Shown one piece after another: positions 1 through 42,707 of a DNA stretch of 42,707 nucleotides. Origin of the DNA: a virus. A program made the translations under genes and the position numbers. How positions within the stretch are numbered: the stretch's first letter is position 1; each line of letters starts with the position of its first letter. The DNA lies in the IMG/VR virus record IMGVR_UViG_3300036832_000904, positions 1 through 42,707 of that record, one strand, 5' to 3'. The notes under the pieces were generated by a model, which saw nothing but the letters and a program-made list of their open reading frames with translations, was not told the origin of the DNA and made no database searches.

Positions 1-141
1 TTTTGGAGTATAAATTTAAGAATATGTCGTTGTCAATGGCTTTGTCGTTTTCGTTGCTTTGTCGTTTCCTACGGGATCTTAGTTCCTACAGGCTTCGGCG
101 TTCTTGTGGCATTTGGTATATTATACAGGTTCTATATGGTA

Positions 142-172
142 GCTATATGCCTGCATATGTATGGCATATAGC
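142..172. repeat. Inverted repeat GCTATATGCC/GGCATATAGC
   Basis: Two perfect 10-bp arms (142-151 and 163-172) flank an 11-nt AT-rich spacer that contains CATATG. The arm core GCATATAG recurs in other dyads at 5306-5330 and 27058-27078. This suggests a shared protein-binding site rather than a terminator, since no T-tract follows. Confidence 0.6.
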
Positions 173-322
173 TTCCGTATAGATTAGATCCTGACAGGAG
201 CGAAGAGGACCGCGAAGAGGCCAGGCCAGGTCGCGATCGCCCAGCTCGGGAGCCTGTGGATCGCGGACTGTTACTAATACTCTCTCTAATTTAATTTGTA
301 TTACTTCTTAAGTACCTAGTCG

Positions 323-423
323 GTCACACAGACACCACCCTGGTGTCACACAGACACCACCCCCCAAGCGATCCTCCCTAAAATCAAATAGATAGCTAAG
401 GTGGTGTCTCATAGACACCACCC
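323..423. repeat. Iteron-like repeats with hairpins
   Basis: The 18-bp word GTCACACAGACACCACCC is present at 323-340 and again at 345-362, a 22-bp period. A variant, GTCTCATAGACACCACCC, lies at 406-423. The second and third copies form hairpins: GGTGTC/GACACC (342-358), and perfect 9-bp arms GGTGGTGTC/GACACCACC around a 5-nt loop (400-422). The sequence after copies 2 and 3 is also related over about 40 bp, so a longer unit of ~61 bp has been duplicated and has diverged. A 22-bp spacing, about two helical turns, is typical of initiator-binding iterons. Confidence 0.65.
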
Positions 424-487
424 CCCAGCGTTTCCTCTTTGAAATCAAGTAGTTAAAGCCTTATTTAGGCATACGGCGCCAAAAGGC

Positions 488-557
488 TGTGGATCCCGAC
501 CAGCACTTTCCCACAGAAAATGGCACTTTTCCACACTAATCCACAGGTTTTTGCACA
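488..557. promoter_or_regulatory. DnaA-box cluster
   Basis: Compared with the consensus TTWTNCACA, exact matches are TTTTCCACA (527-535) and TTTTGCACA (549-557). One-mismatch or weaker relatives are TAATCCACA (537-545), TTTCCCACA (507-515) and, on the minus strand, GGATCCACA (488-496). Another minus-strand relative is at 255-263. Five sites in 70 bp next to iterons support a DnaA-assisted replication origin. Confidence 0.6.
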
Positions 558-696
558 AATGTAAATAAAATGATTTGTCGCATAAACGCTGAAAGTGTGG
601 TAGGACGTTTCCGTCCCAAAAGTTTTCGCCAAACATACGTGAACCTCGCAAGATACTAGGCAAACGGACCATTTCACCCTTACCGTAGACGTTATT

Positions 697-1050
697 GTGT
701 CGTCTGTCCAAAAAGCCGCAGTTCGCGATTTAGAAACTCATTCATTTGTAATGATTTACAGGGCGTTCTATCGCTTGAACCCATCGCAAATTGCGTTTAT
801 GACCTACGCTTCACTGAAGTATTTTGCAAGTCCTAGCGGCAAAATCGAATTCACCAGCGTCCCGACGATGGCTGAGTGGGTGGGCATATCGGTGAGTTCA
901 TTCCAGAGGGGAGTTCGAGAGCTAGTGAAAAAGGGCGCTGTCAAGATCCACCGCCGCAGACGTAAAACACCAGCCGGGCAAAAATTATCTCTGCCAAACT
1001 TGTATGAGCTTGTGAAACTTAGCCCGAATGATCCAGATGAAGATTTTTAG
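697..1050 (+). CDS. Putative replication initiator (winged-helix protein)
   Basis: A 117-aa basic protein. Residues about 45-95 look like a winged helix-turn-helix: helix, TMAEWVGISVSSFQRGVREL, then a basic wing HRRRRKT. This resembles the HTH_36/DnaD-like domain at the N-terminus of many small plasmid and phage initiators. It is encoded directly downstream of the iterons and DnaA boxes, which fits a protein that binds them, but the rest of a typical Rep protein is absent. The GTG start at 697 has no clear Shine-Dalgarno sequence; ATG 751 is an alternative. Its base composition is more AT-rich than the structural genes. It could equally be a transcriptional regulator of the early region. Confidence 0.5.
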   Translation: MSSVQKAAVRDLETHSFVMIYRAFYRLNPSQIAFMTYASLKYFASPSGKIEFTSVPTMAEWVGISVSSFQRGVRELVKKGAVKIHRRRRKTPAGQKLSLPNLYELVKLSPNDPDEDF

Positions 1051-1078
1051 GGGAATCTCAAGCGTTATCGTGGCCCTC

Positions 1079-1117
1079 TTGACAGAGCTTAAAAACTAAG
1101 ATGCTATAGAAACGTCA
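1079..1117 (+). promoter_or_regulatory. Promoter with near-leaderless start
   Basis: TTGACA lies at 1079-1084 and an extended -10 element, TGCTATAGA, at 1102-1110. The 20-bp spacing is long, but the TG-extended -10 can compensate. Transcription would begin at about 1117, which is the A of the ATG of the next gene. The transcript would therefore be leaderless or nearly so, and no Shine-Dalgarno sequence is present. Confidence 0.45.
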
Positions 1118-1329
1118 TGGCCAGAATCCGAAAATCTATGCCGAAAAACAGGAACGCCAGCCCTACCCCCAGGACTGCGCTGCGTTTTTTCAACGAAGAG
1201 GACTTTAACCTTGTGCGAAATGCCGCCGTTTTATCCCGCCTCTCGATCAACCGCTGGATGATGCGTGTTTGTCTGGCTGCAGCTCACCGCGAAGTGAAAA
1301 ACGCCGAAGCTGGGAAACTAAGTTTTTAA
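1117..1329 (+). CDS. Small RHH-like DNA-binding protein
   Basis: A 70-aa, strongly basic protein. The first ~20 residues are a basic, Pro/Asn-rich tail. Residues about 22-60 (ALRFFNEEDF followed by LSRLSINRWMMRVCLAAA) resemble a ribbon-helix-helix fold of the Arc/CopG/DUF1778 kind: a short strand, then two helices with a serine-initiated second helix. Such proteins autoregulate their own promoters, and the promoter lies immediately upstream. It starts at ATG 1117 without a Shine-Dalgarno sequence, consistent with a leaderless message. The exact family is not recognised. Confidence 0.5.
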   Translation: MARIRKSMPKNRNASPTPRTALRFFNEEDFNLVRNAAVLSRLSINRWMMRVCLAAAHREVKNAEAGKLSF

Positions 1330-1345
1330 TCTGGAGCCGTGAAAT

Positions 1346-2505: not shown

Positions 2506-2543
2506 AGCCTCCGAGGCGCTACAGCAGGCCTACAGGCAAAAAG

Positions 2544-2591: not shown

Positions 2592-2618
2592 TGGCGCGAT
2601 CTAGGGGGATTCAAGGCG

Positions 2619-4082: not shown

Positions 4083-4096
4083 GCCGCAAGTCTACC

Positions 4097-4131: not shown

Positions 4132-4240
4132 TAAAGGGGTACTAGTTTTATTAGTCCCCTGCGAACCTTCCCCACCAACCTGCCCGGCCAGGCTTACACT
4201 CTCCCTCGAAACCCTTTAGTTTCGACAGGAGAATTTCAAA

Positions 4241-4834
4241 ATGAGCGGTTTGTGGCAGCGTCCTAACGGTCCTCAGACAATCGCGGCACAGCCGGCCGCC
4301 CAGGCCCCGCTGAATGTGCAGTTTGCCCTGGCACCGATGGCCCCCGCCGTCCTGGTGCTTTCCGCGGTGACGGAAGCGGTTTTCGCCCACCCCCAGAATC
4401 CCGCGATCCCCTACAGCCTGCCGCTCTCCCCGAACGAGGGGAATGAGCAGACCCCGTTTGATCTAATCGTGTCGGGTTACATCACCACCGGGCAATCAAC
4501 GAACGTGACCCTGAAGGTTTATTCAGGAACGTCCTTCACCGTGGGCAGCGATGTTGTGCTAGCCACCAGCGGCGCCATCGCGGTGAATTCCACATCGGCC
4601 CCGTTCGAGATCCATTTGCACATGATCTACGACTCGGTAAGCGGGAAACTAACCGGCTGGTTCGATGGGACGGTAAATAATAACCTGATCACAAAGGCCG
4701 CCCTGTCCACGGTTGTAACTGGCATCAAGGACAGCAACAATCCGGTGGTGAACTTCCTCATCAGCGGCACATCGAGCGCCGCGACTGCTCCCCTCCCAAC
4801 GACCATCACCGTAAGAAATTTCAGCGCAGGCTGA
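4241..4834 (+). CDS. Beta-rich virion protein (decoration or fibre candidate)
   Basis: 197 aa. After a low-complexity N-terminus rich in Pro/Ala/Gln, residues about 70-195 alternate polar and hydrophobic residues in strands (GYITTGQSTNVTLKVYSG, FEIHLHMIYDSVSGKLTGWF). This is typical of a jelly-roll or beta-sandwich. The general design resembles the protein at 14765-15406, so the two may be distant paralogues; that is inference. It has a good ribosome-binding site (GACAGGAG) and an AACTAAA-type word (CTTTAGTTTC) just upstream. It is the first gene of the rightward structural block. Function is not recognised. Confidence 0.55.
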   Translation: MSGLWQRPNGPQTIAAQPAAQAPLNVQFALAPMAPAVLVLSAVTEAVFAHPQNPAIPYSLPLSPNEGNEQTPFDLIVSGYITTGQSTNVTLKVYSGTSFTVGSDVVLATSGAIAVNSTSAPFEIHLHMIYDSVSGKLTGWFDGTVNNNLITKAALSTVVTGIKDSNNPVVNFLISGTSSAATAPLPTTITVRNFSAG

Positions 4835-6969: not shown

Positions 6970-7277
6970 ATCTAAAACTTAAATCGTGGCTTAAAACCGC
7001 ACTGATGGCAGCAGGCGGGGGCGGAATAGCGGGGGCCGTTGCGGCTGCTTTCGACCCCAAGAAGTACGATATTCGGCACGATATTGGATCCGGCAAACTG
7101 TGGATCTTCTTTTTCCAGGGCTTCGGACTCACCTTCCTGGCCTTGCTGGTGAAATCGCCTTTCGGCCAGCAGATGATAGGCGCGTACAAGGATTCACAGA
7201 GCCAGCTGGAGCAGAGCAGAAAGGAGATCGAACGATTGAAAGCTCAGGCCGACAAGACGGAGGGGACTGATGGCTGA
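6966..7277 (+). CDS. Two-helix membrane protein (holin-like candidate)
   Basis: 103 aa. It starts with an ATGA overlap after the terminase. Hydrophobic segments at about residues 11-28 (Gly/Ala-rich) and 47-65 (LWIFFFQGFGLTFLALLV) are followed by a charged coiled-coil tail (about 75-98, QSQLEQSRKEIERLKAQ). Two transmembrane helices with a charged cytoplasmic tail fit a small class II holin or a membrane anchor. Between TerL and the portal, it could also be an assembly factor. It overlaps the portal gene by 8 nt. No family is recognised. Confidence 0.55.
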   Translation: MNLKLKSWLKTALMAAGGGGIAGAVAAAFDPKKYDIRHDIGSGKLWIFFFQGFGLTFLALLVKSPFGQQMIGAYKDSQSQLEQSRKEIERLKAQADKTEGTDG

Positions 7278-9483
7278 CACATTAGAGCTGGCTAAGAGGC
7301 CGACAGGCGACGGGATGCCGCTGGGGCAGACCACTTCCCTTTCCATTCGCAAGGACCAGGTGAAGCTGGAAACGAGCCCGGCGAAGGAAGTTGAGTTTGA
7401 CAATGACGCCGCGGCTTCGCTGGCCTGGGACGCCTACCAGAAGGCGACGGCCTGGATCGACACGAACAGCTGGCTGATGGAATGGCAATACATCGACTAC
7501 ATGTATCAGAGCCCCAACTATGACCGCGACTGGCGCACAGCCACGAACCGACCGGCGCGGATCTCGCGGTTCAACGTGGCCAAAAACCGCAACACCATGA
7601 GCAGCCAAACCAGGCGCGCGGTGTTTGGTGACGATCACTGGTTTATGCTCGACCCGCGGGGCAAGATGGCCGGCCGGCCTGATGTTGAAGAGTACATGAA
7701 GGCCTGGACGGAATTGTTTCTGATTCTCTCCGAGCGCGCCGATCTCGAATACAACATGCGGCTGTTCATCGAATCGCAATCGCTGCAGGGGACAGGCATC
7801 GCGGTCCCCGGCTGGGAAGAGAAGAAAGTCATCAAGACCTGGCGGGAGCCCACCGAGCCGCCTACAGAAATCGACATGCCCGCGGGCGGCAAAAAGAAAA
7901 TCCACACTTTCAAATCCGACAACTGGGAAACTAAAAAACGAACAGTCACAGAGAGCTGGCCGTTTTTTGAATACCGGCGCCTGGGGACGACGCTCTATAA
8001 CGAAAAGTGGCGGCATCCTGGCCGGCCCGATCTAAGCGGCTGGCCGCGGGTCGATGTTGATTACGTCGATTTTCACGATCTGCGCCAGCTGCGCGATCTG
8101 GACTGCTACGCCGACGAAAAAGGCGTTCCCATCATCCCCGACGACGAGAAACTAAAAACATACTTTCTCGCCAACCCGCTTACCAATGCCGAGCCAGGCA
8201 CCCAGACCGCGCAGCAGATGAACGCCCATTCAAGCATGGTGATGCATGCCGTGGGCGAGAACGCGCAAACCACATCCAACCCGTTTCAAAGGCCGCTTCT
8301 AAAAGTTGCTTACTGGACAGAACAGCGAGTGGTGGAGCTGCTTTGCTATGACGGCCGCAAGCTGACAATCCGCAACGAGGAACACGGCACGCGCGAGCAC
8401 GCCGCGGGCTATTCCGCGACCTGGTGCAACATCGAGAATTCAGGCTACGGCTTCGGGATCGGCCGGATGAACGTGGGCGATCAGCGCATGAGCCAGGGCG
8501 TTCTAAACGAAGTCCTGAAGATGATCGCGTTCCCCATGAACGCGCCCGTTTTGTACGACAACGCCGCGGGTAACGCGCCGGTGCAGAACATCATCGCCGG
8601 CCTGGGCCTGATGCTGGGAATCAATACCGGCAGATCTGGGGATGTTAAAAAAGCGGTGGGCTTCATGGAGATGCCGCAGATCCCCTCCGAGGCCTGGAAG
8701 GTGTACGAGCTGGCGATGCAGGGCGGCGAACAGCTGGTGGGCGCTGACCGGGCCATGATGCAGGGCCAGCTGCCGGGGCCGGGCTCTTCGATCGGGCGCA
8801 CCGCCACCGGCGCCAGCCGCCTGGCCGACAAGGCCGACGAAAGCATTGCGGATCCCGTGCAGATGATCGAGTTCGTTTTAGAACGCTGGCTGGATTTTCT
8901 CTGGATGGGTGTGCGGGAAGTGATGCCCATCAAGGAAATTCGCGACCTGCTTTCCGACAAGTTAGGCGAAAAAATTCTCGAGACTTTAGACGCCAAAGAG
9001 TTCATGGATGCGCGCTTCGAGATCAAAGTTCTGTGCGGAAAGAAGCTGGCCGCCAAAGCCGCGATCGCGCAGCTGATTCCCTTCTTGTTGCAGATCCTGG
9101 CTCAGCCCAACATTGCGCAGTTTGAGCAGCAGATCGGGATGCGGGTGAACTATGGCGCCATTGCCGATCTGTTCCTGCGCATGTCTGAACTGGCGGTACG
9201 CGAAGATATTTTCATCCCCATGACCGACGAGCAGCGCCAATTCGCGCAGCAGATGAACCCGAATCTGCAGCGAATCGCTGCACAAACCAAGATCGAGCAG
9301 GAGAAGGGCCAGAACAAGCTGCAGCAGATTCAGGAGCAGGGCAAGCAGGACGTAACTAAAACTTTAGTCGAGAAGGCAATGGATCACGTTCAAGGAGCGG
9401 TTCCCCTGGAGCTGGCCGAAGCCAGGCTGGCGCGCAACACTGACATGGCCACACTGCAGCAGGGGGCGGTGCAGCCGCAGTAG
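7270..9483 (+). CDS. Portal protein
   Basis: 737 aa, in the size range of podovirus portals, which form the dodecameric ring at one capsid vertex for packaging and ejection of DNA. Supporting features are position after TerL, an N-terminal region with WIDTNSWLMEWQYIDYMYQSPNYDRDWR, a long central wing, and a stem region with SGYGFGIGRMNVGDQRMSQ and NEVLKMIAFPMNAPVL (residues about 390-430). The C-terminal ~90 residues are Gln-rich helices (IEQEKGQNKLQQIQEQGKQD), as in a portal barrel. It starts inside the upstream gene, so the two are coupled. Confidence 0.85.
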   Translation: MADTLELAKRPTGDGMPLGQTTSLSIRKDQVKLETSPAKEVEFDNDAAASLAWDAYQKATAWIDTNSWLMEWQYIDYMYQSPNYDRDWRTATNRPARISRFNVAKNRNTMSSQTRRAVFGDDHWFMLDPRGKMAGRPDVEEYMKAWTELFLILSERADLEYNMRLFIESQSLQGTGIAVPGWEEKKVIKTWREPTEPPTEIDMPAGGKKKIHTFKSDNWETKKRTVTESWPFFEYRRLGTTLYNEKWRHPGRPDLSGWPRVDVDYVDFHDLRQLRDLDCYADEKGVPIIPDDEKLKTYFLANPLTNAEPGTQTAQQMNAHSSMVMHAVGENAQTTSNPFQRPLLKVAYWTEQRVVELLCYDGRKLTIRNEEHGTREHAAGYSATWCNIENSGYGFGIGRMNVGDQRMSQGVLNEVLKMIAFPMNAPVLYDNAAGNAPVQNIIAGLGLMLGINTGRSGDVKKAVGFMEMPQIPSEAWKVYELAMQGGEQLVGADRAMMQGQLPGPGSSIGRTATGASRLADKADESIADPVQMIEFVLERWLDFLWMGVREVMPIKEIRDLLSDKLGEKILETLDAKEFMDARFEIKVLCGKKLAAKAAIAQLIPFLLQILAQPNIAQFEQQIGMRVNYGAIADLFLRMSELAVREDIFIPMTDEQRQFAQQMNPNLQRIAAQTKIEQEKGQNKLQQIQEQGKQDVTKTLVEKAMDHVQGAVPLELAEARLARNTDMATLQQGAVQPQ

Positions 9484-10424: not shown

Positions 10425-10621
10425 TCCGTTTTGGCTGTGTGCGCGCGCAAATTGATTGCGAATTCTGCCCTCGGCGCGCCACCATGACGATGAAAGATCC
10501 GAGCGGTAAAAGATGGCGCGTATGCGCACTCTGTTATTGGGTGGGGCAGCACCACGATCACAACCAGGGATGCCCGTGGAACGATAAACGCAGCTGCAGC
10601 GGGGCTCGCCGTGATAACTAA
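10421..10621 (+). CDS. Small Zn-ribbon protein
   Basis: 66 aa with a clear metal-binding pattern: CEFC near residue 13, CALC near residue 36, then HHDH and a further Cys (GCPWN). The two CxxC knuckles about 20 residues apart fit a zinc ribbon. It starts with an ATGA overlap to the upstream gene and is overlapped by the next. Many such mini-proteins occur in this genome. The role is unknown. Confidence 0.6.
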   Translation: MIRFGCVRAQIDCEFCPRRATMTMKDPSGKRWRVCALCYWVGQHHDHNQGCPWNDKRSCSGARRDN

Positions 10622-11027
10622 AACGCCTTTAGAAAAGTACCTGGCCGGCGAGCCTTTGAACGACGAGCTGGCGGCCCTGCGCGCTGGGATCCACGAAGAA
10701 TTCAAGGCGCCCGCGGCGCCGGCCTGGGATCCCCGGCTGCCGGCCGCCGAGGACGACGACAAGCCGCTTTCCAAGGCGGAACGCCAGGCGCTGAGAGAGG
10801 GCCGCCAGGTGGGGGCGTTTACCACTCTTGCTAGGCTGCTAAGAATCCGGCTGCGTCTGCATGTTCGGCAAGCAACAATAGACAGCGAAAAAGACCCTCT
10901 AGCGAGATCTTCGGAAATCGCCCAGGTCTGGGCTTACATCAGCATCTATCGGGCGCTGGCAGCCGAGATTGAGGCCATGATTCAAAAGGAGATCGAAGAG
11001 CTGGAGAAGAGCGAGCGGGGACAGTGA
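10611..11027 (+). CDS. Hypothetical helical protein
   Basis: 138 aa with a GTG start inside the previous gene. It is acidic, Ala- and Glu-rich and probably mostly helical. A Pro/Ala linker lies at about residues 35-50, and the C-terminus AEIEAMIQKEIEELEKSERG looks like a coiled coil. It stops in a GTGA overlap with the next gene. The placement just before the scaffold and capsid genes suggests an assembly role, but no family is recognised. Confidence 0.5.
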   Translation: MITKTPLEKYLAGEPLNDELAALRAGIHEEFKAPAAPAWDPRLPAAEDDDKPLSKAERQALREGRQVGAFTTLARLLRIRLRLHVRQATIDSEKDPLARSSEIAQVWAYISIYRALAAEIEAMIQKEIEELEKSERGQ

Positions 11028-13040: not shown

Positions 13041-13065
13041 TTTTTTAGTTTCTCCGCAAGACCGA

Positions 13066-29299: not shown

Positions 29300-29971
29300 T
29301 TGCCCGCGACCCCGAATATCACACTGACGGCGACACTGCAGGATATTACCGGGGCGGCCGTGGGATCGGCCGCCAATCCGGTGAAGCTGTGCATTGCCCT
29401 CTGCGGCTTTGGCGCGCAGCTCCCGCGCATCGGCGGGACTTCAATGCTGGCGCGCGTGGGGCCGATGTATCTCGAAAGCGCCACCGGCGTTTTTACTGCA
29501 GTGAAGCTGTGGGGGAACGACGCGATCACCCCGGCAGGGACGTATTACACCATTAGCCTGATCGACGGCCAGGGCGACGTGGTGCAATGCGCGGCCTACC
29601 AGCTCGCCGGATCCGGCAGTTTCGATCTAAGTAATTTAGTTTCCATCTTCCCTGCGGTTCCGATCCCCAGCACTGGCTACATTTTTGTTCCGTCTTCGAC
29701 TCCGGTTTTCAATGCCGGGGGATGGGGCGGATCTGTGACGTTCGACATGACGCTGAATGCAAATGTGACCAGCAGCAGCTTGGTGAACATCATCAACGGG
29801 CAGCTCGTCCAGTTCATCATCCAGCAGGACGGCACAGGCAGCCGCACCTTTGCCTGGCCGGCCAACGTGAAAAACCCCCCTTTGATCAACCCCGCGGCGA
29901 ATTCAGTTAGCACGCAGCTTTTTATCATGCGCGCAGACGGCAACCTGTATCCGATTCTGGGATGGAGCTAG
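29300..29971 (+). CDS. Tail fibre / spike adaptor candidate
   Basis: 223 aa. The N-terminal ~100 residues (ITLTATLQDITGAAVGSAANP ... GVFTAVKLWGNDAITPAGTYYTISLID) resemble the Ig-like domain seen at the start of phage fibre proteins. The C-terminal half is a beta domain (FDMTLNANVTSSSLVNI, RTFAWPANVKNPPLINP) close to the peptide-like module found in spikes. TTG 29300 is the only start after the last in-frame stop (29288-29290) before ATG 29444. It lacks a good RBS, though AGGGGACA lies 20 nt upstream. It precedes the tailspike gene by 4 nt. Confidence 0.55.
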   Translation: MPATPNITLTATLQDITGAAVGSAANPVKLCIALCGFGAQLPRIGGTSMLARVGPMYLESATGVFTAVKLWGNDAITPAGTYYTISLIDGQGDVVQCAAYQLAGSGSFDLSNLVSIFPAVPIPSTGYIFVPSSTPVFNAGGWGGSVTFDMTLNANVTSSSLVNIINGQLVQFIIQQDGTGSRTFAWPANVKNPPLINPAANSVSTQLFIMRADGNLYPILGWS

Positions 29972-32463: not shown

Positions 32464-32742
32464 ATGAAACTGGTTCCAGCATCGAAGGGCCACACCCCGA
32501 AGGGCGCGCATGGACGGGCGGCCGTTGAGGCGATCGGCAGAACAAAAACCACCGGCAACTTTAAGCGGATCGAAGCCGTCCACGGAAAAGGCGCCGCGAT
32601 CGCCGCGTATCAAAACAAGCTCGCCGCCCACAAGGGCGAGCACAACGGGCCGACAGCGCATGTGGGCAAATCCGGTATGCACTACGGCGCGCACGACTCC
32701 CACACCGCGATCTGCTCCCAGGCCGGCTGCGAGGGCTGCTGA
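32464..32742 (+). CDS. Small basic Gly/His-rich protein
   Basis: 92 aa, RBS TAGGAGGG before ATG 32464. It is basic and rich in Gly, His, Ala and Lys. The repeated theme KGHTPKGAHGRAAVEAIGR / GEHNGPTAHVGKSGMHYGAH probably is unfolded or binds nucleic acid or metal. It ends with SQAGCEGC. Function is not recognised. It may be a small virion or chaperone-like protein for the spikes. Confidence 0.5.
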   Translation: MKLVPASKGHTPKGAHGRAAVEAIGRTKTTGNFKRIEAVHGKGAAIAAYQNKLAAHKGEHNGPTAHVGKSGMHYGAHDSHTAICSQAGCEGC

Positions 32743-32760
32743 GAAGGGAACTAAAAAACT

Positions 32761-32979
32761 ATGGGGATCAGCGAAGCACTGTCGATTGCTTTTACCAAAG
32801 GCGCGCGCACCATCCCATGCCCGTTCAGCCAGGCCACAAACCACCCCGGCGACTGCGCTTGCATGGGAACGGGAAAAGTGCAGGTCTGCGAGAACTGCCA
32901 GGGATCCGGCTGGGATGGAAACAAGAACCAGGCCTGTAAGAACTGCCGCGGCCGCGGGGCGCTCCCAAAAGTTGGGTGA
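32761..32979 (+). CDS. Small DnaJ-type zinc-finger protein
   Basis: 72 aa. It has C-x-C and CxxCxGxG motifs (CACMGTGKVQVCENCQGSG, then CKNCRGRG), the classic repeats of the DnaJ central zinc domain, in a free-standing form. Such mini-proteins can act as redox or folding helpers. It starts at ATG 32761 after an AACTAAAAAAC word. No J domain is present. It ends just before an antisense terminator (32989-33033). Confidence 0.65.
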   Translation: MGISEALSIAFTKGARTIPCPFSQATNHPGDCACMGTGKVQVCENCQGSGWDGNKNQACKNCRGRGALPKVG

Positions 32980-33066: not shown

Positions 33067-33687
33067 ATGGGGACTACAAGTGTGGTGCAACACGCATCCT
33101 CGGCCAGTAGTGCAGCAATCCTGATTTTGAATGGCATGGCGAGCAAGTACGAAGGGCGAGCCACAGTAACGTGCGGAGTCTGCAGGCGAGCGCAGTTTAA
33201 CAAAGGCCAGGACCACTGCATCGCCTGCCATGCAAAATTTTTGATTGCCTTAGAACCCCTCAGCGACTGGGATGCAAAAAAACGCGACCAGGCACAGATC
33301 GAGATGAACACGGGCGAGAGAATATGCGTCAGGCTTCGAGATCTGCGGCGCCTGCTGGGGATCAGCCAGCCGGAACTGGCCGAGGCCTCCGACTGTGTGC
33401 GAACCCACATTTCGAAGTACGAAAATGGGCGGATCATTCCCACGATTGCTTCTCTTTCCCGACTGGCCGGCGCGATGAATATCACAATGGCCGAACTGCT
33501 GGATGAATCTCTCTTTGCGGAACAGCTGGCCCTTATTTCGCTGCTTAGATCTCCGGGGGATGGAGAACTAATGCGTGCTCTTCTGCTGTCCCTGCCGAGA
33601 TTAGGGAAGCATAGCAGAGCGTTTCTGCTGAATGCAGCAGGTTTTATCAAATCGTCGCCATCGCCCTTAGTTCCTCCCCCGGTCTAA
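33067..33687 (+). CDS. XRE-family regulator with N-terminal Zn ribbon
   Basis: 206 aa. Residues 36-54 (CGVC ... CIAC) give two CxxC-type knuckles of a zinc ribbon. Residues about 84-146 are an XRE helix-turn-helix (RLRDLRRLLGISQPELAEAS, VRTHISKYENGRIIPTIASL). The C-terminal ~55 residues are helical (FAEQLALISLL, RALLLSLPRLGKHSR). XRE proteins with this Cys-ribbon plus HTH layout are, as I recall, common in Acidobacteria. It probably controls phage gene expression, perhaps the maintenance versus growth decision. Regulation: an antisense terminator lies just upstream and hairpins lie at its 3' end. Confidence 0.8.
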   Translation: MGTTSVVQHASSASSAAILILNGMASKYEGRATVTCGVCRRAQFNKGQDHCIACHAKFLIALEPLSDWDAKKRDQAQIEMNTGERICVRLRDLRRLLGISQPELAEASDCVRTHISKYENGRIIPTIASLSRLAGAMNITMAELLDESLFAEQLALISLLRSPGDGELMRALLLSLPRLGKHSRAFLLNAAGFIKSSPSPLVPPPV

Positions 33688-33836: not shown

Positions 33837-34049
33837 ATGGGTGTCATCTTGAGCCAGGCACGGCTGTCAACCACAACCAAGCAGTACGTTTTCGCAACTA
33901 TCTTGAACCCACGGCATAACATTTCGATCAGGCGAACGGCGCGCGAGATCCGCAGGGAAATTATCGCGTGGATTGTGGCGGCCGGCTGCCTGGTGCTGAT
34001 GGCTTACGTTATCGCGTACACCGCGATCGCGGCCATGAAACGGAACTAA
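33837..34049 (+). CDS. Small single-pass membrane protein
   Basis: 70 aa. A basic N-terminus (RHNISIRRTAREIRREI) is followed by one hydrophobic helix (AWIVAAGCLVLMAYVIAYTA, residues about 44-63) and a short basic tail. The ATG has GGAAGG abutting it, too close for a normal RBS, so initiation may be leaderless or start at TTG 33849. Role unknown. It could anchor a complex at the membrane with the next gene product. Confidence 0.5.
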   Translation: MGVILSQARLSTTTKQYVFATILNPRHNISIRRTAREIRREIIAWIVAAGCLVLMAYVIAYTAIAAMKRN

Positions 34050-34073
34050 AGGGAAAGGAAAGAGGGGACAAAC

Positions 34074-35675
34074 ATGTGGGATCTATTCGAATTTAGCGCC
34101 GAGAACTTCATGCATCTGCGCTACGTGGAACTAAAAAACATAGGCCGGATGAACATTTTCACCGGCAAGAACGGCCAGGGGAAAACATCAGCCGTAAACG
34201 CCCTGGCGTATGCTCTGGGCGGCAAACCCTGGAGCCCCGAAGAGCCGACCCGCAAGGGGGCGAAGGGCCACAAAGTTCACCTGGGGCTGCGCAACGGTGA
34301 GCGCGGCACATACTACCTGGAGCGCACCCAGAACGGCCTGAAGATCGAGCCGGCGCCGGGCTGCAAGGCCTGGAACACTCCCCAGGCCATGCTGAATGAC
34401 ATTTTCGATGAATTCGCGCTGGATCCGATTGAATTCATCCGGCTGGGCAAGAACGCGGAGGGCAGACGAGAGCAGGTTAAAATCCTGCGCAACGCCATCA
34501 CGCTGAGTGTCGATCTCGAAAAACTGGACGCGGAAACTGACGTTGACTTTAAGAAGCGCCGCGAGATTAACCGCGAGGTCGAGCGGCTGAAAGCGGAGAT
34601 CGCGTCAGTCACCGTGCAGCCGGGCCTGCCAAATGACCCGATAGATATAGGGGCGATTCAGGCGAGGATCCAAGAAGCCAACCAGCACAACCAGGGGGTT
34701 ATCCGGCTGATCGAGGAACGCCAGCGGCTGAGCGAAGTCCTGGCCGCGGCCGAGGCGGCCCAGGCGCGGAATGGGTTGCTGATCGAGCACCAGCACACCA
34801 CCATCGAGAGGCTAACGGCCGATCTCGAACAACTGAAGCCCGGCCTGAGCCTGGCCGCGGCGATCCGCGACGAGCTGGAGGATCTGAAAGACCAGGCCGG
34901 GCGCCTTCCAGAACTAAAAGGCTTAGCTTCCCGGCTGCGCGACGTGATAGCCGAGGCGCGGGCGCGCGCTCTGGCCTACATTCCCGAAGCCGGCCAGGCG
35001 CAGAACGCAGCCGCGCTGGATCTCGACCAGGCGCGCAAGACGCTGCAGGCGGCCGAGAACCAAACCGCGGCGCTGGCGCAGGCGGTTGCCGATGCGCGGC
35101 TGGCCCTGGAGGCGGCGGCTAAACCGGCGATGGTGGATGTGTCGGCACTGACCGAGGAACTGAACCAGGCCCAGCTGGTGAACCGGCAGATCGAGCGCCG
35201 CATCCGGGTGGAGGGGCTGGTAAAAGAGAGGGAAGCGCAGGAATCCGCGGCGGCCGCGCTGACCCGTGCGATGGACAGGCGCGCGGAGCAGAAGCGGACG
35301 GCGATCGCTGATGCGAAAATGCCCGTCGAGGGGCTGACGTTCAACGCCGAGGCCGGCAAAGAGGAAATCCTTTTTGAAGGTGTGCCGATCTCGCAGCTAG
35401 GCGAAGCGCAGCAACTAAAAATTACTATTTCCATAGCTCTGGCGCGCAAGCCGGGGCTGCGACTGATCAGGATCCCGCACGGCGAAGCACTGGACGAGGA
35501 CAGCCTGGCCGAGCTGGCTCAGATGGCCAAGGACATGAACTTTATTGTCTGGATGGCTCGCGTAGACTCCAGCGGGAAGCTGGGAATCTACCTGGAAGAT
35601 GGCGAAGTTAAGGCCATCAACGAGGAACCTAAAACGAAAGGAGACCTGCCTAGCGAAAAAACACTGAAAAACTGA
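34074..35675 (+). CDS. SbcC/RecF-like ATPase
   Basis: 533 aa, RBS GAGGGGAC before ATG 34074. Walker A FTGKNGQGKTSAVNAL is at residues 29-44. Residues about 150-400 are long coiled coils (KRREINREVERLKAEI, QARIQEANQHNQGVIRLIEE, and a long Ala/Leu-rich stretch). The C-terminal ATPase half has GVPISQLGEAQQLKITISIALARK (signature-like), LRLIRIPHGEALDEDS (degenerate Walker B), and LGIYLEDGEV. This is the family of phage Rad50/SbcC-type ATPases that work in DNA end processing or recombination, usually with a nuclease. No partner nuclease is evident next to it, so it may use a host nuclease. A terminator follows at 35691. Confidence 0.75.
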   Translation: MWDLFEFSAENFMHLRYVELKNIGRMNIFTGKNGQGKTSAVNALAYALGGKPWSPEEPTRKGAKGHKVHLGLRNGERGTYYLERTQNGLKIEPAPGCKAWNTPQAMLNDIFDEFALDPIEFIRLGKNAEGRREQVKILRNAITLSVDLEKLDAETDVDFKKRREINREVERLKAEIASVTVQPGLPNDPIDIGAIQARIQEANQHNQGVIRLIEERQRLSEVLAAAEAAQARNGLLIEHQHTTIERLTADLEQLKPGLSLAAAIRDELEDLKDQAGRLPELKGLASRLRDVIAEARARALAYIPEAGQAQNAAALDLDQARKTLQAAENQTAALAQAVADARLALEAAAKPAMVDVSALTEELNQAQLVNRQIERRIRVEGLVKEREAQESAAAALTRAMDRRAEQKRTAIADAKMPVEGLTFNAEAGKEEILFEGVPISQLGEAQQLKITISIALARKPGLRLIRIPHGEALDEDSLAELAQMAKDMNFIVWMARVDSSGKLGIYLEDGEVKAINEEPKTKGDLPSEKTLKN

Positions 35676-35726: not shown

Positions 35727-35761
35727 CGATTTCTAAAACGGAACTAAAAAAGGGGAGCAAG

Positions 35762-36025
35762 GTGGCAGAAACGTGGCCGGATCCAATCGTGAAAAGCGAA
35801 CACGTCGCCCAGGCAATAGATTGGGTGAGACACCGAACCAGGGACCGAATCAGGCTGCTGGTGGCGGTGGGGGCGAACAGCATAGCGGTGGCCAAACCGC
35901 GGGACGTGGATGCGGAGGATGCGATCAGCTTCCTGGCCGATCTGCAGGAGGACATAGCGCGGGCAATCAGAGAAATGCAGCAAAAAAGGCTAACTCATAT
36001 CTCGATCCGATTACCGGACAGGTGA
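35762..36025 (+). CDS. Small hypothetical protein
   Basis: 87 aa from GTG 35762 with RBS AGGGGAGCAAGG. Mixed alpha/beta with WVRHRTRDRIRLLVAVG and DAISFLADLQEDIARAIREMQ. No family is recognised. It stops in a GTGA overlap with the next gene. A run of six A (35982-35987) near its end could allow a -1 frameshift into that gene. Confidence 0.45.
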   Translation: MAETWPDPIVKSEHVAQAIDWVRHRTRDRIRLLVAVGANSIAVAKPRDVDAEDAISFLADLQEDIARAIREMQQKRLTHISIRLPDR

Positions 36026-36473: not shown

Positions 36474-36697
36474 TCGCAACATTCAGTGTGAGCATTTTTC
36501 TTGCAGCGGGAACAGGGATTTACTCCCAGCTGGAAACGGGTTACGGGCGGCCTGAAGTTGTCCAGCCGTAGCGGCTGGCGGGCGTAGTGCCACGTATTGA
36601 GATACCCTCGTGGCGGGTCTTTGCGGCACATCTCGCCCGGTCCCGCGCCGCAGGTGGGGCAGTCTTGAGCCAGCACTGCTCTGAGAAGGGCATTCAT
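36365..36697 (-). CDS. Cys-rich zinc-binding protein
   Basis: 110 aa. Two knuckle groups are visible: CPTCGAGPGEMCR near residue 13, and CSRCKKNAHTECCDHHARKH with CTCEC further on. The first matches the CxxCxxxxGxxC finger found in many phage and plasmid proteins. It starts with an ATGA overlap to the RHH gene and ends at the convergent terminator, so it is the last gene of the par unit. It may bind DNA or modify the partition complex; this is inference. Confidence 0.55.
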   Translation of the reverse strand: MNALLRAVLAQDCPTCGAGPGEMCRKDPPRGYLNTWHYARQPLRLDNFRPPVTRFQLGVNPCSRCKKNAHTECCDHHARKHGQPGIPCTCECATRRRVGLARAQLNPKTA

Positions 36698-36918
36698 CTG
36701 GCACCCAGCGCCATCAGGCGCTCAGCTACAGAGTTAACCACGAAGGCGGTTCGGCTCAGGCCCATTTCAGCGGCCTTGAGATCGAGGCGCATCAGCAAAT
36801 CCTGGTCGAAGCTGATCAGGACCGGGCGAAGGGTTCGGGCTTTCCCGGCGCTGCCGTTGCGAACGAATTTAGTTTCGGCGGCGCCGGGGGCGGGCTTCTT
36901 AGGCTTTTTCGAGATCAT
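36694..36918 (-). CDS. RHH protein, probable ParB/ParG-like partner of ParA
   Basis: 74 aa. A basic disordered N-terminus (KKPKKPAPGAAETK) precedes a ribbon-helix-helix domain: strand RPVLISFDQDLLMRLDLKAAEMGLS (split in strand and helix), then RTAFVVNSVAERLMALG. This layout, flexible basic tail plus RHH dimer, is that of ParG/omega-type centromere-binding proteins. It overlaps the end of the ParA gene (36899-36918), the usual order of type Ib partition cassettes. It should bind an operator/centromere near the parA promoter (37586-37630). Confidence 0.7.
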   Translation of the reverse strand: MISKKPKKPAPGAAETKFVRNGSAGKARTLRPVLISFDQDLLMRLDLKAAEMGLSRTAFVVNSVAERLMALGAR

Positions 36919-37585
36919 GCTTTTTGTCCTTTTTGAAAAGTGAGTTGAACAGTTGAGAGAATTCCGAACGGGCAGCCTCGCCCGCGGCGTCTGCGGTTTC
37001 GAGGATGCCCAGGCCCTTGGCAGCGGCGTTCGAATAGCTCTTCCAGCGGCGCAAACTAAACGGGCTTACTTCGATGCCCTCCACGCTGGCCAGGTATTCC
37101 CCGGCCTGGATGTTGTCCTGGCCGCGGTGATCGGCGGCATTGATAACCGCGACGGCGCGCAGGCCGGTGTTTAGTTCGCGCGCTTCGCGCACCAGGTCTG
37201 CGGTTTGTTCGACACCCCACAAATCGAAGCTTCGCGGCGGCGACGGAATTAAAACTAAGTCCGACACCGTGAGAGCGGCGCGGAGCGAACCGGAATCCCG
37301 CCCGCCCACGTCGATAACGATGTGGCTATACTTGGCCGCCAGCTGCGATCTAACCTGGGTTCGGATCGAGGCGCCGTACAAGGCGATGGCGGCGAAGTCG
37401 ATCTCACCGCCGCGGCGCTCGGCGCGGAGCTGGATGAACGATAGCGCCGTGGCCTGCTGGTCGCCGTCGATCAGAAGCACCTGGCGATCGCGTTCCCGGC
37501 GACTCATGCTGAGAGCGATACAGAGATTAAGGGACAGGGTAGTTTTACCCACCCCGCCCTTCACGTTTGCACAACTGACGATCAT
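36899..37585 (-). CDS. parA: ParA-family partition ATPase
   Basis: 228 aa, small type Ib-like ParA. Deviant Walker A KGGVGKTTLSLN (residues 9-20, signature Lys9 and Lys14), A' motif VLLIDGDQQAT (about 37-47) and B-type motif YSHIVIDVGGRD (about 85-96). It lacks the N-terminal HTH of long ParA proteins. Such ATPases drive movement of plasmid copies over the nucleoid. It starts at ATG 37585 with GGGGGACAAC upstream. The next gene is an RHH partner. Its presence in a phage genome without integrase indicates maintenance as a low-copy plasmid in the lysogenic state. Confidence 0.88.
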   Translation of the reverse strand: MIVSCANVKGGVGKTTLSLNLCIALSMSRRERDRQVLLIDGDQQATALSFIQLRAERRGGEIDFAAIALYGASIRTQVRSQLAAKYSHIVIDVGGRDSGSLRAALTVSDLVLIPSPPRSFDLWGVEQTADLVREARELNTGLRAVAVINAADHRGQDNIQAGEYLASVEGIEVSPFSLRRWKSYSNAAAKGLGILETADAAGEAARSEFSQLFNSLFKKDKKHDLEKA

Positions 37586-37969: not shown

Positions 37970-38129
37970 CGGCGGCCTCCTTCGTGGGCCGCGCGCAGAC
38001 GCACTCAGGATCGCCGCACACCCCGTTAATTGCCGGCGCGCCCGCGAGGCACACGTCAACGATTGCGGGCCGCTGAACTATGCCGTTTAAGATTTGGCGG
38101 AAAATCGGGTGGGTCTTATCGTTTGCCAT
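37959..38129 (-). CDS. Small Cys-containing hypothetical protein
   Basis: 56 aa from ATG 38129, RBS GGAGG. The first part HPIFRQILNGIVQRP is a helix. The rest has VCLAGAP, VCGDPECVC (three Cys) and ends EAADGK. It overlaps both neighbours. The 19-bp segment carrying its RBS and start is identical to the one at the next gene down (37962-37980). Similar small proteins occur on plasmids and phages. Function unknown. Confidence 0.5.
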   Translation of the reverse strand: MANDKTHPIFRQILNGIVQRPAIVDVCLAGAPAINGVCGDPECVCARPTKEAADGK

Positions 38130-38140
38130 CGGCGGCCTCC
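37962..38140. repeat. Duplicated 19-bp gene-end/gene-start segment
   Basis: TTTGCCATCGGCGGCCTCC is present at 37962-37980 and identically at 38122-38140. Each copy encodes the C-terminal EAADGK of one gene and the RBS and start codon of the next. This looks like a junction copied by recombination. Confidence 0.75.
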
Positions 38141-38379
38141 AGTTTTTCGACAGACGGGAGCCCGCGCTTGACCAGGAGGTCGCTTAGAGCTTCGCTCAAG
38201 AGACGGCTCAGAGTCTTTCCCTCTCGAATGGCTAGAATTTTTAGTTCTCTTTGCACTGAGGGCGTGAAATGCCCGGCGATCATGACGTGGCCAGCGCGGC
38301 CTGGCTGAATCGCTTTCCCGGTTGCGGTCACAGCCGCGGGCTTGCGCGCCGCGGCCGGATTAGTCTTCTTAGTTGTCAT
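38116..38379 (-). CDS. RHH-domain protein (antitoxin- or ParG-like)
   Basis: 87 aa from ATG 38379, in ATGA overlap with the gene upstream. A basic Ala/Lys/Thr-rich tail (residues 1-30) precedes GHVMIAGHFTPSVQRELKIL and REGKTLSRLLSEALSDLLVKRG, a ribbon-helix-helix with strand, turn and two helices. Proteins of this layout are plasmid antitoxins or segregation factors. No toxin partner is obvious next to it. It is the second RHH protein in this part of the genome. Confidence 0.65.
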   Translation of the reverse strand: MTTKKTNPAAARKPAAVTATGKAIQPGRAGHVMIAGHFTPSVQRELKILAIREGKTLSRLLSEALSDLLVKRGLPSVEKLEAADGKR

Positions 38380-38612: not shown

Positions 38613-38987
38613 TTAGTATTCGTCAGGGAGCAGGATAGTGGTTCGGGACCTATCCCATTCGGTGATGATCCAAATTTTCGTGCGATCTGCCAGGTGATAC
38701 GCGCTTAAAATGCGGCTGCACTCTTCGGGATCCGGTTGAATCGCATCTTCGTTGGCCTGCCTGTCGTTGTCTGACAGGTCGCCCCAATCGCCAGATTCGT
38801 GGCGCTTGAGGTAGACGATCGGCGCGATTCCGTTAGCTTCGAGGGCTTCGAGGGCGCCGGGAGTGGCGCTGCACTGTCCGAGAATGAATCGTGGCAATTT
38901 TGGCATTTCGGTTTCCTCATTGATTACGTGAACGTTGTGGACGCCAAACACGACGCCGAGGGCTTCGATAAAGTCAAACTCTTCCAT
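38613..38987 (-). CDS. Widespread plasmid-borne conserved protein
   Basis: 124 aa, RBS AAAGGAAC. The core LPRFILGQCSATPGALEALE, then HESGDWGDLSDNDRQANEDA, and C-terminal RILSAYHLADRTKIWIITEWDRSRTTILLP match a small family found widely on conjugative plasmids and integrative elements. It is often mislabelled a type I restriction subunit. Its biochemical function is not established. Its N-terminal ~25 residues (EEFDFIEALGVVFGVHNVHV) are an extra piece; the family usually starts near residue 27. Its presence supports plasmid-like ancestry. Confidence 0.75.
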   Translation of the reverse strand: MEEFDFIEALGVVFGVHNVHVINEETEMPKLPRFILGQCSATPGALEALEANGIAPIVYLKRHESGDWGDLSDNDRQANEDAIQPDPEECSRILSAYHLADRTKIWIITEWDRSRTTILLPDEY

Positions 38988-39620: not shown

Positions 39621-39709
39621 AGTTTCTCCCTTTCAATGCGCCGACTTTGAACGGCTGCCAGTGCATTACAAGCGGGAGAGCCCGCCTGTCATCTGCAGGA
39701 TTAAAGTTT

Positions 39710-40390
39710 TTAGTTCGCCAGCATCAGCTCGGTTTCCAGGCGCATCAGGGCCTCGCGAACGTTGTTATTTGAATCCTTGACTAGGCGGGCGAAGTTGGGG
39801 CGCGGCGCGCTGTCGGGTGCGTTCTCATTCCAGATTTTTTCGAGCAGCGCCGCGGCTTCGGCTGCGATGCCATAAGACGAAAATTCGACCGATTTAACGC
39901 GGGAAATAAACCTGTCCTGCAGGCGATCGACAGCGTTACAGGTGAAAATCCAAATCGTGTTTGGAAGCGCCGCGGTCCCGTCCAGTTTAGAAAGCAGAAA
40001 GAGCTGGGCTCGCTCCGTCATCTGGTCGGCTTCGTCAACTAAAATCAGGTGCATTTTTTTCCCTGCCATCGGGACGTATTGACAGGTGGAACACACGCGC
40101 TCCAACGTGGCCACGTCACAGCTTTGCGAGGGAATGTGATGCACTTCCGCGGGAATCAGCTCTGCCAGCGCCGCGGCCATAGTTGTTTTGCCCGTACCAG
40201 ACGGACCCAGGAATAGCCACGCGCTAGGGAATGGCCGCGCGGCCAGTTTGGCGCACAAGGTTTTAGCTTTCGCGAGTCCTACAAATTCGCTCATTTGCCG
40301 TGGCCGGTAACGCTCTGTCAGCGATACCGGGAAGAGGAAAGCCGCTTGTGCGGCCTGCGATTGGTCGGGCGTTCCGAACAGGTCAAACAT
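39710..40390 (-). CDS. Clamp-loader-like AAA+ ATPase
   Basis: 226 aa. Box-I TERYRPRQMSEFVG (residues 25-38), Walker A FLGPSGTGKTTMAA (60-73), Walker B LILVDEADQM (115-124), sensor 1 IWIFTCN (146-152) and arginine-finger-like RFISRVKSVEF (160-170) are those of RFC/DnaX small-subunit ATPases. The length is short: no C-terminal collar domain beyond about 225. No DNA polymerase or clamp is evident in the window, so it may load host clamps, help replication start or act in another remodelling job. It is coupled in the leftward unit with the two genes upstream. Confidence 0.8.
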   Translation of the reverse strand: MFDLFGTPDQSQAAQAAFLFPVSLTERYRPRQMSEFVGLAKAKTLCAKLAARPFPSAWLFLGPSGTGKTTMAAALAELIPAEVHHIPSQSCDVATLERVCSTCQYVPMAGKKMHLILVDEADQMTERAQLFLLSKLDGTAALPNTIWIFTCNAVDRLQDRFISRVKSVEFSSYGIAAEAAALLEKIWNENAPDSAPRPNFARLVKDSNNNVREALMRLETELMLAN

Positions 40391-40413
40391 TTTTAGTCCC
40401 CCTTAGTTTTTGG

Positions 40414-41238: not shown

Positions 41239-41265
41239 TTTGTGAGCCCTCAACTTTCAGAATTT

Positions 41266-42330
41266 TTAGAAAATGGGAAGCGGGTGGAGGGCGAGAATCG
41301 AGTCAATCGAATTCGAGTCATAGCCCCGAAAAACTAACATGTCTGCGACCGCGCGAACCTGCAGGCCTATGGCGAGCAACTGTGAGCCTTCGATAGACGC
41401 GCGTTGCGTGCAGGTTAGTTTGGGATGATCACGTTTCGCAGACTGGCGAACCTTGCGCACCCAAGTTACCCACGAATCGGAACGGTCAAAATGGCGCGCT
41501 GAAAGTTGTCTTTCGAGCGTTTCATCAGTGTCCCATTGGATAAAGTGGAAACGATCACGTACCGCACCATCTAACGCGCGACGGTCGCTGAATTGGATGG
41601 TTGCGCCAAGTGCAGGTGTGTTCCCTGTCGCGATGCAAACGAAGTCTGCATGGCGCGCGGTGAGTCCGCAAGGGAATGAGGCATGGCCATTCGCCAGCGC
41701 GCCATTGAGTGAGCCCAACAAATTCCCACTGGCCAGTTCTAGTTCATCTAAAAGAAAAATTCCGCCTTGCGAATACGCGCGGTAAAAGTCGCTTGCGACG
41801 TAGTTTCCACTCGCATCCAAGTACCCCATAAGGCGAGATTCGGTCATCTGAGCCTGCAGGCCTAAGTAATAGAATGGCAGGCCTAACAGTTCTGCGATGA
41901 TACGCGCAGCGGACGACTTGCCAGAGCCCGCCTCACCCCATAGATAGACGTTCTTTCGAATCCCCACCAATTGAGTGAGCAAATCAAAATGCTCATGTTT
42001 GTGGCCATCTATCTCACCAATGGTTTGGCCCGATTGGATGTAAACGGTTTTAATTTCCTTGGGCAAATTTTCCAGCATGGCCGCGACTTTTTCAGTGATT
42101 CGCGCGTCTAGCTCTTCCGTTATCTCTTCCCGTTGTAGAGTCAAATAAGGCTGCAGGCTAGATGCAAGAATGGCTGCTAGATTGTCATTTCCTGCAGCAA
42201 CTGCAGGCCTGTTAGCTTTGCAAGACGAGTGATATTTGCTCGTATCTCCGCGTCTATTCCAGCTAATCTCTTGCCCTAGTTCAATCGGGCCATTACAGAT
42301 ACTGCAGGTTCCTGATTCGTTGGCTATCAT
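41266..42330 (-). CDS. MoxR/CobS-like AAA+ ATPase with N-terminal Zn finger
   Basis: 354 aa. N-terminal zinc finger: C9, C12, H34, C37. A coiled-coil-like helix spans about 60-95. AAA+ core: Walker A LWGEAGSGKSSAARI (130-144), Walker B GGIFLLDELELA (189-200), sensor 1 VCIATGN (231-237), and arginine-finger segment GAVRDRFHFI (255-264). The segment LGLQAQMTESRLMGYLDASG is typical of MoxR/CobS chaperone ATPases, which remodel proteins with a vWA partner. Its neighbour may be that partner. This is the first gene of the leftward unit, beginning beside the origin, and is relatively AT-rich. Confidence 0.75.
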   Translation of the reverse strand: MIANESGTCSICNGPIELGQEISWNRRGDTSKYHSSCKANRPAVAAGNDNLAAILASSLQPYLTLQREEITEELDARITEKVAAMLENLPKEIKTVYIQSGQTIGEIDGHKHEHFDLLTQLVGIRKNVYLWGEAGSGKSSAARIIAELLGLPFYYLGLQAQMTESRLMGYLDASGNYVASDFYRAYSQGGIFLLDELELASGNLLGSLNGALANGHASFPCGLTARHADFVCIATGNTPALGATIQFSDRRALDGAVRDRFHFIQWDTDETLERQLSARHFDRSDSWVTWVRKVRQSAKRDHPKLTCTQRASIEGSQLLAIGLQVRAVADMLVFRGYDSNSIDSILALHPLPIF

Positions 42331-42380
42331 GTTTTCCCCTTCCCCGTTCGCAATGTTGAAACTAGACGGTAGCAGTTGGA

Positions 42381-42395
42381 AAGTATACTTGTCAA
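42381..42395 (-). promoter_or_regulatory. Leftward promoter -35 with operator palindrome
   Basis: On the minus strand TTGACA (42395-42390) is followed at once by AGTATACTT (part of the palindrome AAGTATACTT, 42381-42390). The -10 would fall near 42366-42371 (TACCGT, weak). A regulator bound to the palindrome would overlap the promoter spacer and control the AAA+ operon. Confidence 0.45.
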
Positions 42396-42473
42396 CAAAA
42401 AGCTAAAAATATAATTGGAATATAGAAAACATGCGGGAAGCATATGGAAACTATAGGTTTTAGTTTCAGGCTC

Positions 42474-42511
42474 GATTCGGAACGGATTCTCAAGGGATTC
42501 GGAACGGATTC
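42474..42511. repeat. 16-bp repeats at 22-bp period
   Basis: GATTCGGAACGGATTC occurs at 42474-42489 and 42496-42511, with TCAAGG between. The 22-bp period equals that of the iterons at 323-362, on the other side of a presumed circular junction. Each unit is itself a partial dyad (GATTC...GGATTC). Confidence 0.65.
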
Positions 42512-42518
42512 GCGCGCG

Positions 42519-42579
42519 CTGCAGATGGCCTGCAGATGGCCTGCAGATGGCCTGCAGATGGCCTGCAGATGGCCTGCAG
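42519..42579. repeat. 11-bp tandem repeat (five copies)
   Basis: The unit CTGCAGATGGC is present five times without change from 42519 to 42573, plus a partial copy to 42579. Each unit has a PstI-type palindrome CTGCAG. The 11-bp period is one helical turn, so all copies face the same side of the DNA. Perfect copies imply recent expansion or strong selection. Confidence 0.85.
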
Positions 42580-42674
42580 GTGAGCCCGCTAGAACTATAA
42601 AAAGCTAGTTTCCTATGAAAACCGAGAACGCCCCGAAAAAGGCGAAAGGGGCGGGGGCGGGGGGAGCGCCGCGA

Positions 42675-42703
42675 TTGACACATCCATGCGAATATGCTAA
42701 ATT
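42675..42703 (+). promoter_or_regulatory. Rightward promoter at window end
   Basis: TTGACA (42675-42680), a 17-bp spacer, then TAAATT (42698-42703, 4 of 6 matches to TATAAT). It points out of the window; in a circular molecule it would read through the origin toward the initiator gene at 697. Confidence 0.5.
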
Positions 42704-42707
42704 AAAT

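Follow-up and report, generated by a model that had tools for sequence, protein, structure and literature searches.

AACTAAA is dispersed over the genomes of a few related phages: a possible operator network

The virus record IMGVR_UViG_3300036832_000904 of IMG/VR, analysed here over its whole 42,707 bp (the window), contains 32 copies of the heptamer AACTAAA or its complement TTTAGTT, where an order-2 Markov model expects 2.4, an observed/expected ratio (O/E) of 13. The word is under selection as DNA, is shared within one lineage of related phages, forms part of a dyad, and is co-located at gene starts in two of these phages. The best reading, which we regard as an even call, is that the copies are dispersed operator- or stoperator-like sites of a dimeric DNA-binding protein in a plasmid-like phage, with an XRE-type or a ribbon-helix-helix (RHH) protein as the candidates.

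Enrichment of the word

The window has a GC content of 58.2%, a little under the roughly 60% given in the original prediction, which had counted about 30 copies of AACTAAA/TTTAGTT by eye; the 23 coordinates it listed are all correct within 3 bases. Other background models give expectations of 2.1 (order 0) and 1.9 (order 1), so that the count is not near expectation under any of them. Among all 7-mers AACTAAA ranks first, and the remaining leaders are mostly overlaps of it or GC-palindromic words. Unrelated AT-rich 7-mers are not equally enriched, and the related words that are enriched are weaker (AACTAAG 13 observed and 1.8 expected, AACTATA 7 and 1.0, TCTAAAA 16 and 3.1). Variants altered at the C or the T are mostly not enriched, with AATTAAA as a mild exception, a profile that is that of a putative degenerate binding site with a CTA core. 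There are 21-22 copies on the plus strand and 10-11 on the minus strand, spaced roughly uniformly along the window (Kolmogorov-Smirnov p = 0.06), and many belong to the longer forms AACTAAAA (23/32) and AACTAAAAA (15/32).

When synonymous codons were shuffled across all genes, keeping the proteins and the codon usage, the 25 in-gene copies fell to about 1.3. Split by orientation, 20 sense copies compare with 1.14 after the shuffle and 5 antisense copies with 0.17, and AACTAAA is again the top 7-mer. Since the excess is found on both strands, selection acts on the DNA and not on codons or mRNA. The raw tendency of the word to run with the genes (25 of the 32 copies are co-directional) is what coding constraint predicts, because the shuffle itself gives sense and antisense copies at 1.14:0.17. 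It had also been claimed that the word brings in CTA and TTA leucine codons that are otherwise rare. These codons are indeed rare here (CTA 5.8 and TTA 4.1 per 1000 in the window, CTG 40.8), but CTA-AAA accounts for just 9 of the listed sense copies in genes, next to 10 with ACT-AAA and 2 that form a TAA stop, while TTA is used in 3/5 antisense copies. The two in-frame readings, xACT-AAA and xxCTA-AAA, are about equally used, and because the word is read in two frames and on both strands of genes, the rare codons are a by-product of the word.

Distribution among relatives

Relatives were collected by searches with TerL and the capsid protein, giving a family of roughly 40-kb contigs, and most of the near-complete members examined have 0-4 copies of AACTAAA per genome. 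Two are carriers like the window: G025 (IMGVR_UViG_3300010376_000035; the carrier nearest to the window, capsid 84%), with 25 copies per 34,488-bp unit of an inverted dimer, and G027 (IMGVR_UViG_3300047160_007339), with 17 copies in 37.8 kb. In the three carrier genomes the word is seven to twenty times above expectation, and intergenic copies make up 5-6 of 32 in the window, 12 of 25 in G025 and 2 of 17 in G027. The 17-kb contig L154, with 4 copies against 0.6 expected, may be a fourth carrier. In a gene-level shuffle of the relatives, words of the AACTAAA type reach the top group in carriers only; in G027, AAACTAA and TCTAAAA rank beside GC palindromes. In G028, G030, G031, the window and G027, such palindromes (GGCGCC, GCCGGC, CCGCGG and their 7-mers) exceed what codon and protein constraint would give, with z up to 13; restriction avoidance would predict the opposite.

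A capsid tree groups the carriers in a single clade, intermixed with word-less members, and the word has therefore been gained or lost repeatedly. Some 30 sites at scattered positions could not be transferred as a unit, so that a reader acting in trans is implied. Among 272 aligned sequences of word-less relatives, only 2 keep the residues found at the coding word sites and only 9 are gapped, whereas for random triplets of these genes the residues are kept in 10.3%. Few shared residues and few gaps mean that the words arose by substitution at tolerant, variable protein positions; insertion of a small element as their source was rejected, as the words align ungapped in nearly all relatives. Between the window and G025 most sites are at non-homologous positions, with clear exceptions at 19992/8405 and 38240/29718. 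In the latter both halves of the site are retained, and the second half uses a rare leucine codon in each case, CTA in one genome and TTA in the other. Individual sites mostly turn over.

Dyad form and gene starts

For the 74 sites of the three carriers, an inverted half TTTAGTT with at least 4/7 matches is found at +10 in 17 cases, while control offsets give a mean of 2.9 and a maximum of 7. The peak is present in each carrier alone (window 8/32, G025 5/25, G027 4/17). As +10 is one helical turn, this spacing would favour a dimer of the helix-turn-helix (HTH) type. The full putative site is most likely an imperfect 17-bp dyad, AACTAAAnnnTTTAGTT, in which AACTAAA(A) is the strong half and the second half is usually poor; AACTAAAAACTTTAGTT is a candidate site sequence in the putative dyad form, and a near-complete dyad, CAAACTAAAAAAACTTAGTTTG, is found at G025 3018. 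A soft expectation-maximisation motif search drifted to general AT-richness, and fixed-number site selection with offset tests was used instead.

In the gene-start zone (-70/+30) of 25 orthologues, the word is present at 10 in the window and at 8 in G025, with 7 in common where 3.2 are expected (hypergeometric p = 0.0017); permuted words at the same starts have a mean of 0.66 in common and a maximum of 5. The shared places include genes 10611, 13111, 32464, 34074 and 35762, the RHH gene 38116-38379 and the clamp loader. Because the surrounding sequence at these places differs between the two phages, the word must have been kept or remade there. The sites in the window are the following (AACTAAA in each case except where given otherwise).

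4215-4221, minus: intergenic, in front of gene 4241-4834
7929-7935, plus: in gene 7270-9483
8150-8156, plus: in gene 7270-9483
9354-9360, plus: with inverted half AACTAAAACTTTAGTC
10616-10622, plus: start of gene 10611-11027; G025 has a 4-copy array just before the orthologue, an operon gene
13044-13050, minus: gap after the capsid gene; same gap in G025 has the palindromic site at 3018
13137-13143, plus: near start of gene 13111-13761
17252-17258, minus: antisense in gene 16812-17525
18173-18179, plus: with AGCTAGTT half
19992-19998, minus: with TTTAGAT at +10; position kept in G025 (8405)
22106-22112, plus: in gene 21799-22404
23503-23509, plus: in gene 22478-24334
24405-24411, plus: in gene 24331-26796
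25379-25385, plus: in gene 24331-26796
28501-28507, plus: in gene 28329-28565
28572-28578, plus: start of gene 28562-28813
29635-29641, minus: with CTTAGAT at +10
31187-31193, plus: in gene 29976-32438
32749-32755, plus: between genes 32464-32742 and 32761-32979
34044-34050, plus: over stop of 33837-34049, before gene 34074; G025 has AACTAAG copies before the orthologue
34129-34135, plus: in gene 34074-35675
34912-34918, plus: with CTTAGCT at +10
35413-35419, plus: in gene 34074-35675
35742-35748, plus: before gene 35762-36025; also in the equivalent G025 gap
36868-36874, minus: in gene 36694-36918 (small RHH beside ParA)
37054-37060, plus: antisense in parA-like gene
37170-37176, minus: in parA-like gene
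38240-38246, minus: AACTAAAAATTCTAG, in RHH gene 38116-38379; both halves kept in G025 (29718), rare leucine codons
39013-39019, minus: in front of gene 38613-38987
39709-39715, minus: with TTTAATC at +10; over stop of clamp-loader gene
40037-40043, plus: antisense in clamp-loader gene
42459-42465, minus: with TATAGTT at +10

Gene starts in the window and G025 also show a start-associated sequence, GGGGACAA(C/A)..ATG, before several genes (in the window before 34074 on the plus strand and 37585 on the minus strand, in G025 before 29854 on the minus strand), and GGGGAC is among the top 6-mers near gene starts.

Candidate reader proteins

Several predicted products of the window bear on the question of what reads the word.

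33067-33687, plus: XRE/CI-type HTH protein, 206 amino acids (aa), Cys-rich N-terminal part, HTH_3 at 90-144; candidate site-binding protein
38116-38379, minus: Antitox_RHH (PF20605) ribbon-helix-helix protein (RHH2), 87 aa; candidate site-binding protein
36899-37585, minus: ParA-like ATPase
36694-36918, minus: small RHH-like ParA partner (RHH1), 74 aa, weak RHH_1 match; overlaps the ParA gene
697-1050: DnaD/initiator-like HTH protein

The ParA-like protein is nearest to ParAs from plasmids of Sphingobium, Sphingomonas and Roseomonas (53-58%) and to the ParAs of Burkholderia phages KS14 and FLC5 (44-45%). The gene suggests a plasmid-like lysogeny, and the host probably maintains the phage as a plasmid. 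On alphaproteobacterial plasmids, genes for PF20605 proteins lie directly beside ParA; among the phages, G025 has a second copy of the domain and the word-less G026 a single one. Variants of the site lie at the start codon of the RHH2 gene in the window and in G025, which would favour autoregulation by this protein. The XRE protein is shared by the same two phages (62% in the HTH).

ParA with RHH1 was rejected as the determinant of the word, since genomes without the word, G030 and G031 among them, have relatives of both. An AAA_5/DUF7192 module, present in the window and G025 and as AAA_5 in G039 and others, was also considered; it is also found in Mycobacterium, Staphylococcus and Listeria phages. 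Searches of viral contigs with XRE or ParA alone found no relatives, profile searches for RHH and XRE no further carrier, and a search of solved structures no useful RHH relative.

A proposed dispersed network of operator- or stoperator-like sites

In the proposed mechanism, a dimeric sequence-specific protein would bind AACTAAAnnnTTTAGTT sites scattered over the genome. At sites near gene starts it could act as a classical repressor at operators, while at the in-gene sites, which are the majority, it might block elongation or help to silence the whole genome in the manner of stoperators. The reader would be a repressor-type protein of the phage (XRE 33067-33687 or RHH 38116-38379), the phage a plasmid-like lysogen and the effect repressive. 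The ParA-like gene fits a plasmid-like lysogen and the XRE regulator fits a repressor, and both support this reading. Protein binding, modification and packaging had all been suggested as functions of the word; protein binding fits best, given the +10 half-site, the degenerate variants and the co-location at gene starts.

Several findings speak against such a network. The XRE and RHH2 proteins are found in the window and G025 only and are absent from the G027 contig; the nearest matches to G027's own XRE protein (54-56% in the HTH) are those of the word-less G028, G030 and G031. The G027 contig, which may be incomplete, is without the whole region from ParA to AAA, and among phage genes none was seen whose occurrence follows that of the word across all three carriers. 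An operator might be expected at the repressor's own promoter, but no AACTAA lies near the XRE start in the window or G025. Most sites have a poor second half, and in the window only 8/32 reach 4/7 at +10. G027 has no enrichment of the word near gene starts, the gene-start enrichment is modest relative to other AT-rich words, and the start coordinates of the 25 orthologues compared were partly hand-chosen.

Alternative explanations

It is possible, though not likely, that the word is read by the host. Here a host protein, either of a Chi-like recombination/exonuclease system or a nucleoid- or chromosome-organising one, would recognise it, and phages of that host would accumulate it, much as Chi reportedly builds up in phages that lack RecBCD inhibitors (PMC3784561). 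Selection of this kind would act on density, leaving individual sites to turn over fast, and it would agree with enrichment in both orientations, with the patchy occurrence on the capsid tree and with the failure to find a single phage gene in all carriers; an unrelated phage also has its own strong non-palindromic word, SAACAGAY. However, an O/E of 13 is far above the median of about 2-3 for Chi in lambdoid phages (PMC3784561), and neither the +10 half-site nor the recurrence at gene starts in two phages is expected of Chi, which is read as single-stranded DNA. A host-read word would help to trace the host of these phages, which are uncultured. In INPHARED, relatives of the capsid and large tail proteins are detectable only in a Tunturiibacter phage (Acidobacteriota; 33-34%), and the best AAA_5 match (44%) is in another Tunturiibacter phage, so that an acidobacterial host is likely. 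Host searches with the capsid profile, with the capsid protein in plasmids and with the Tunturi_3 protein found nothing.

An unlikely reading is that the word does not form a set of gene operators but lets the phage mark or silence its own genome, with a protein that coats or senses it through dozens of short sites whose number matters and not their position. Different lineages would then use different words, AACTAAA here and SAACAGAY (>100 copies) in the unrelated G039. The group with this second word, (C/G)AACAGA(C/T), comprises G039 (IMGVR_UViG_3300035703_000122; L128-L130) and also L112 and L114; AACAGA has 141 copies in 55 kb, with sense 59/14 and antisense 75/10 in the shuffle, and no second half-site. 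Two other words were rejected as parallels to AACTAAA. In Burkholderia phages KS14 and FLC5 (L071, L074), CAGCTC and CCAGCTCG are strongly enriched (KS14 109/17 and 25/1.5), but CAGCTC is a GC-rich word that is also raised, less strongly, in the related control phage KS5 (60/28.5), and codon effects may contribute to the excess in KS14 and FLC5. The sphingomonad-plasmid word ACCCCAA forms an iteron-like cluster instead.

That the copies are dispersed centromere (parS) sites of the phage ParA system, bound by a ribbon-helix-helix ParB, seems improbable. The window does encode ParA with an adjacent RHH, as well as a PF20605 protein of the type that adjoins ParA on alphaproteobacterial plasmids, with variants of the word at the start codon of its gene in two phages. 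ParA is nevertheless found in the word-less G028, G030 and G031 (up to 56%), and relatives of RHH1 (up to 47%) are also found among word-less genomes, which argues against a plain centromere word, while G027 has the word and no ParA in its contig. Plasmid par promoters show GTATAC/TATAG repeats, and the par promoter of the window is likewise TATA-rich and without AACTAAA; dispersed single in-gene sites would also be unusual for a centromere.

A DNA-modification or packaging/replication signal is very improbable. It would suit such a signal that the core is non-palindromic and occurs genome-wide in either orientation, but the word is missing from relatives whose packaging genes are the same (TerL 38-63% identical), which makes a packaging role unlikely. 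No methyltransferase was noticed among the annotated genes of the window, enrichment would not be expected of a modification motif, and nothing in the analysis points to modification. Finally, a by-product of composition, codon use or mRNA-level selection can be dismissed almost entirely: the raw co-directionality and the clustering of AT-rich words around gene starts point that way, but the 17- to 29-fold excess on both strands survives the synonymous-codon shuffle, which refutes the codon and mRNA explanation and predicts a sense bias even stronger than that observed, and relatives of similar GC are without the word.

Contig ends and other repeats

An outward-facing promoter-like sequence, TTGACA-N17/18-TAAATT, leads to an AT-palindromic tip at contig ends. 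This is seen at 42660-42707 and 1-60 of the window, at the centre of the 68,976-bp G025 contig, which is a perfect inverted dimer about the tip point (CTAAATTAAA/TTTAATTTAG), and at both ends of G008. The structure could reflect hairpin-type ends or an assembly effect; the protelomerase family PF16684 gave no match. Near the right end (42519-42579) there are 5.5 tandem copies of the 11-mer CTGCAGATGGC, and the related CATCTGCAG occurs 8 times genome-wide. Repeats rich in TATA, others of the CAGACACCACC type and a tandem repeat of 17 bp (25-66) lie at the left end (1-430), where they may represent iterons of an origin or a partition site.

Comparison with known systems

Lambda-type XRE/CI operators are 17-bp imperfect dyads with halves 10 bp apart, one of them stronger, and there are few such sites, at two promoters. 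The window resembles them in its putative imperfect 17-bp dyad with halves 10 bp apart, one stronger than the other, and in encoding an XRE protein, but differs in having about 30 sites genome-wide. The phage-plasmid P1 has many dispersed asymmetric operators for one repressor, C1, and many dispersed asymmetric sites in a plasmid-like phage are a likeness to it at the level of description. As with Chi, a short word is over-represented within the genes of a phage genome; unlike Chi, with its O/E of 2-3, AACTAAA reaches 13 and has a second half-site.

Among tailed phages, it is mainly in the Cluster A mycobacteriophages that networks of dispersed operators have been well described, and their stoperators are the nearest working analogy to the AACTAAA sites. 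In L5 and its relatives, stoperators are 20-30 short asymmetric dispersed sites, some at promoters and most not, with a consensus that varies between related lineages, and several of these phages carry parABS (PMC6550527, PMC9283540). These stoperators are 13-mers oriented with transcription, and have been described in promoters and short intergenic spaces. The three carriers are similar in having one short word dispersed in 32, 25 and 17 copies, and in genome size. They differ in that orientation is unbiased once coding constraint is allowed for (20:5 seen, 1.14:0.17 expected), in that most sites lie within genes and not in promoters or intergenic spaces, in the 7-8 bp core with a weak second half, and in phage family and probable host. 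Because of the orientation and the placement, the AACTAAA system is not filed as a member of the Cluster A type. With the carriers and their close word-less relatives, a comparative set is available in which to look for the reader protein and to study how some 30 sites come to be rewritten in a phage when the specificity appears or is lost. If the operator-like reading is true, a network similar to that of Cluster A, but with in-gene sites in either orientation, exists in an unrelated family of soil phages, and genome-wide repressor coverage would have evolved more than once.

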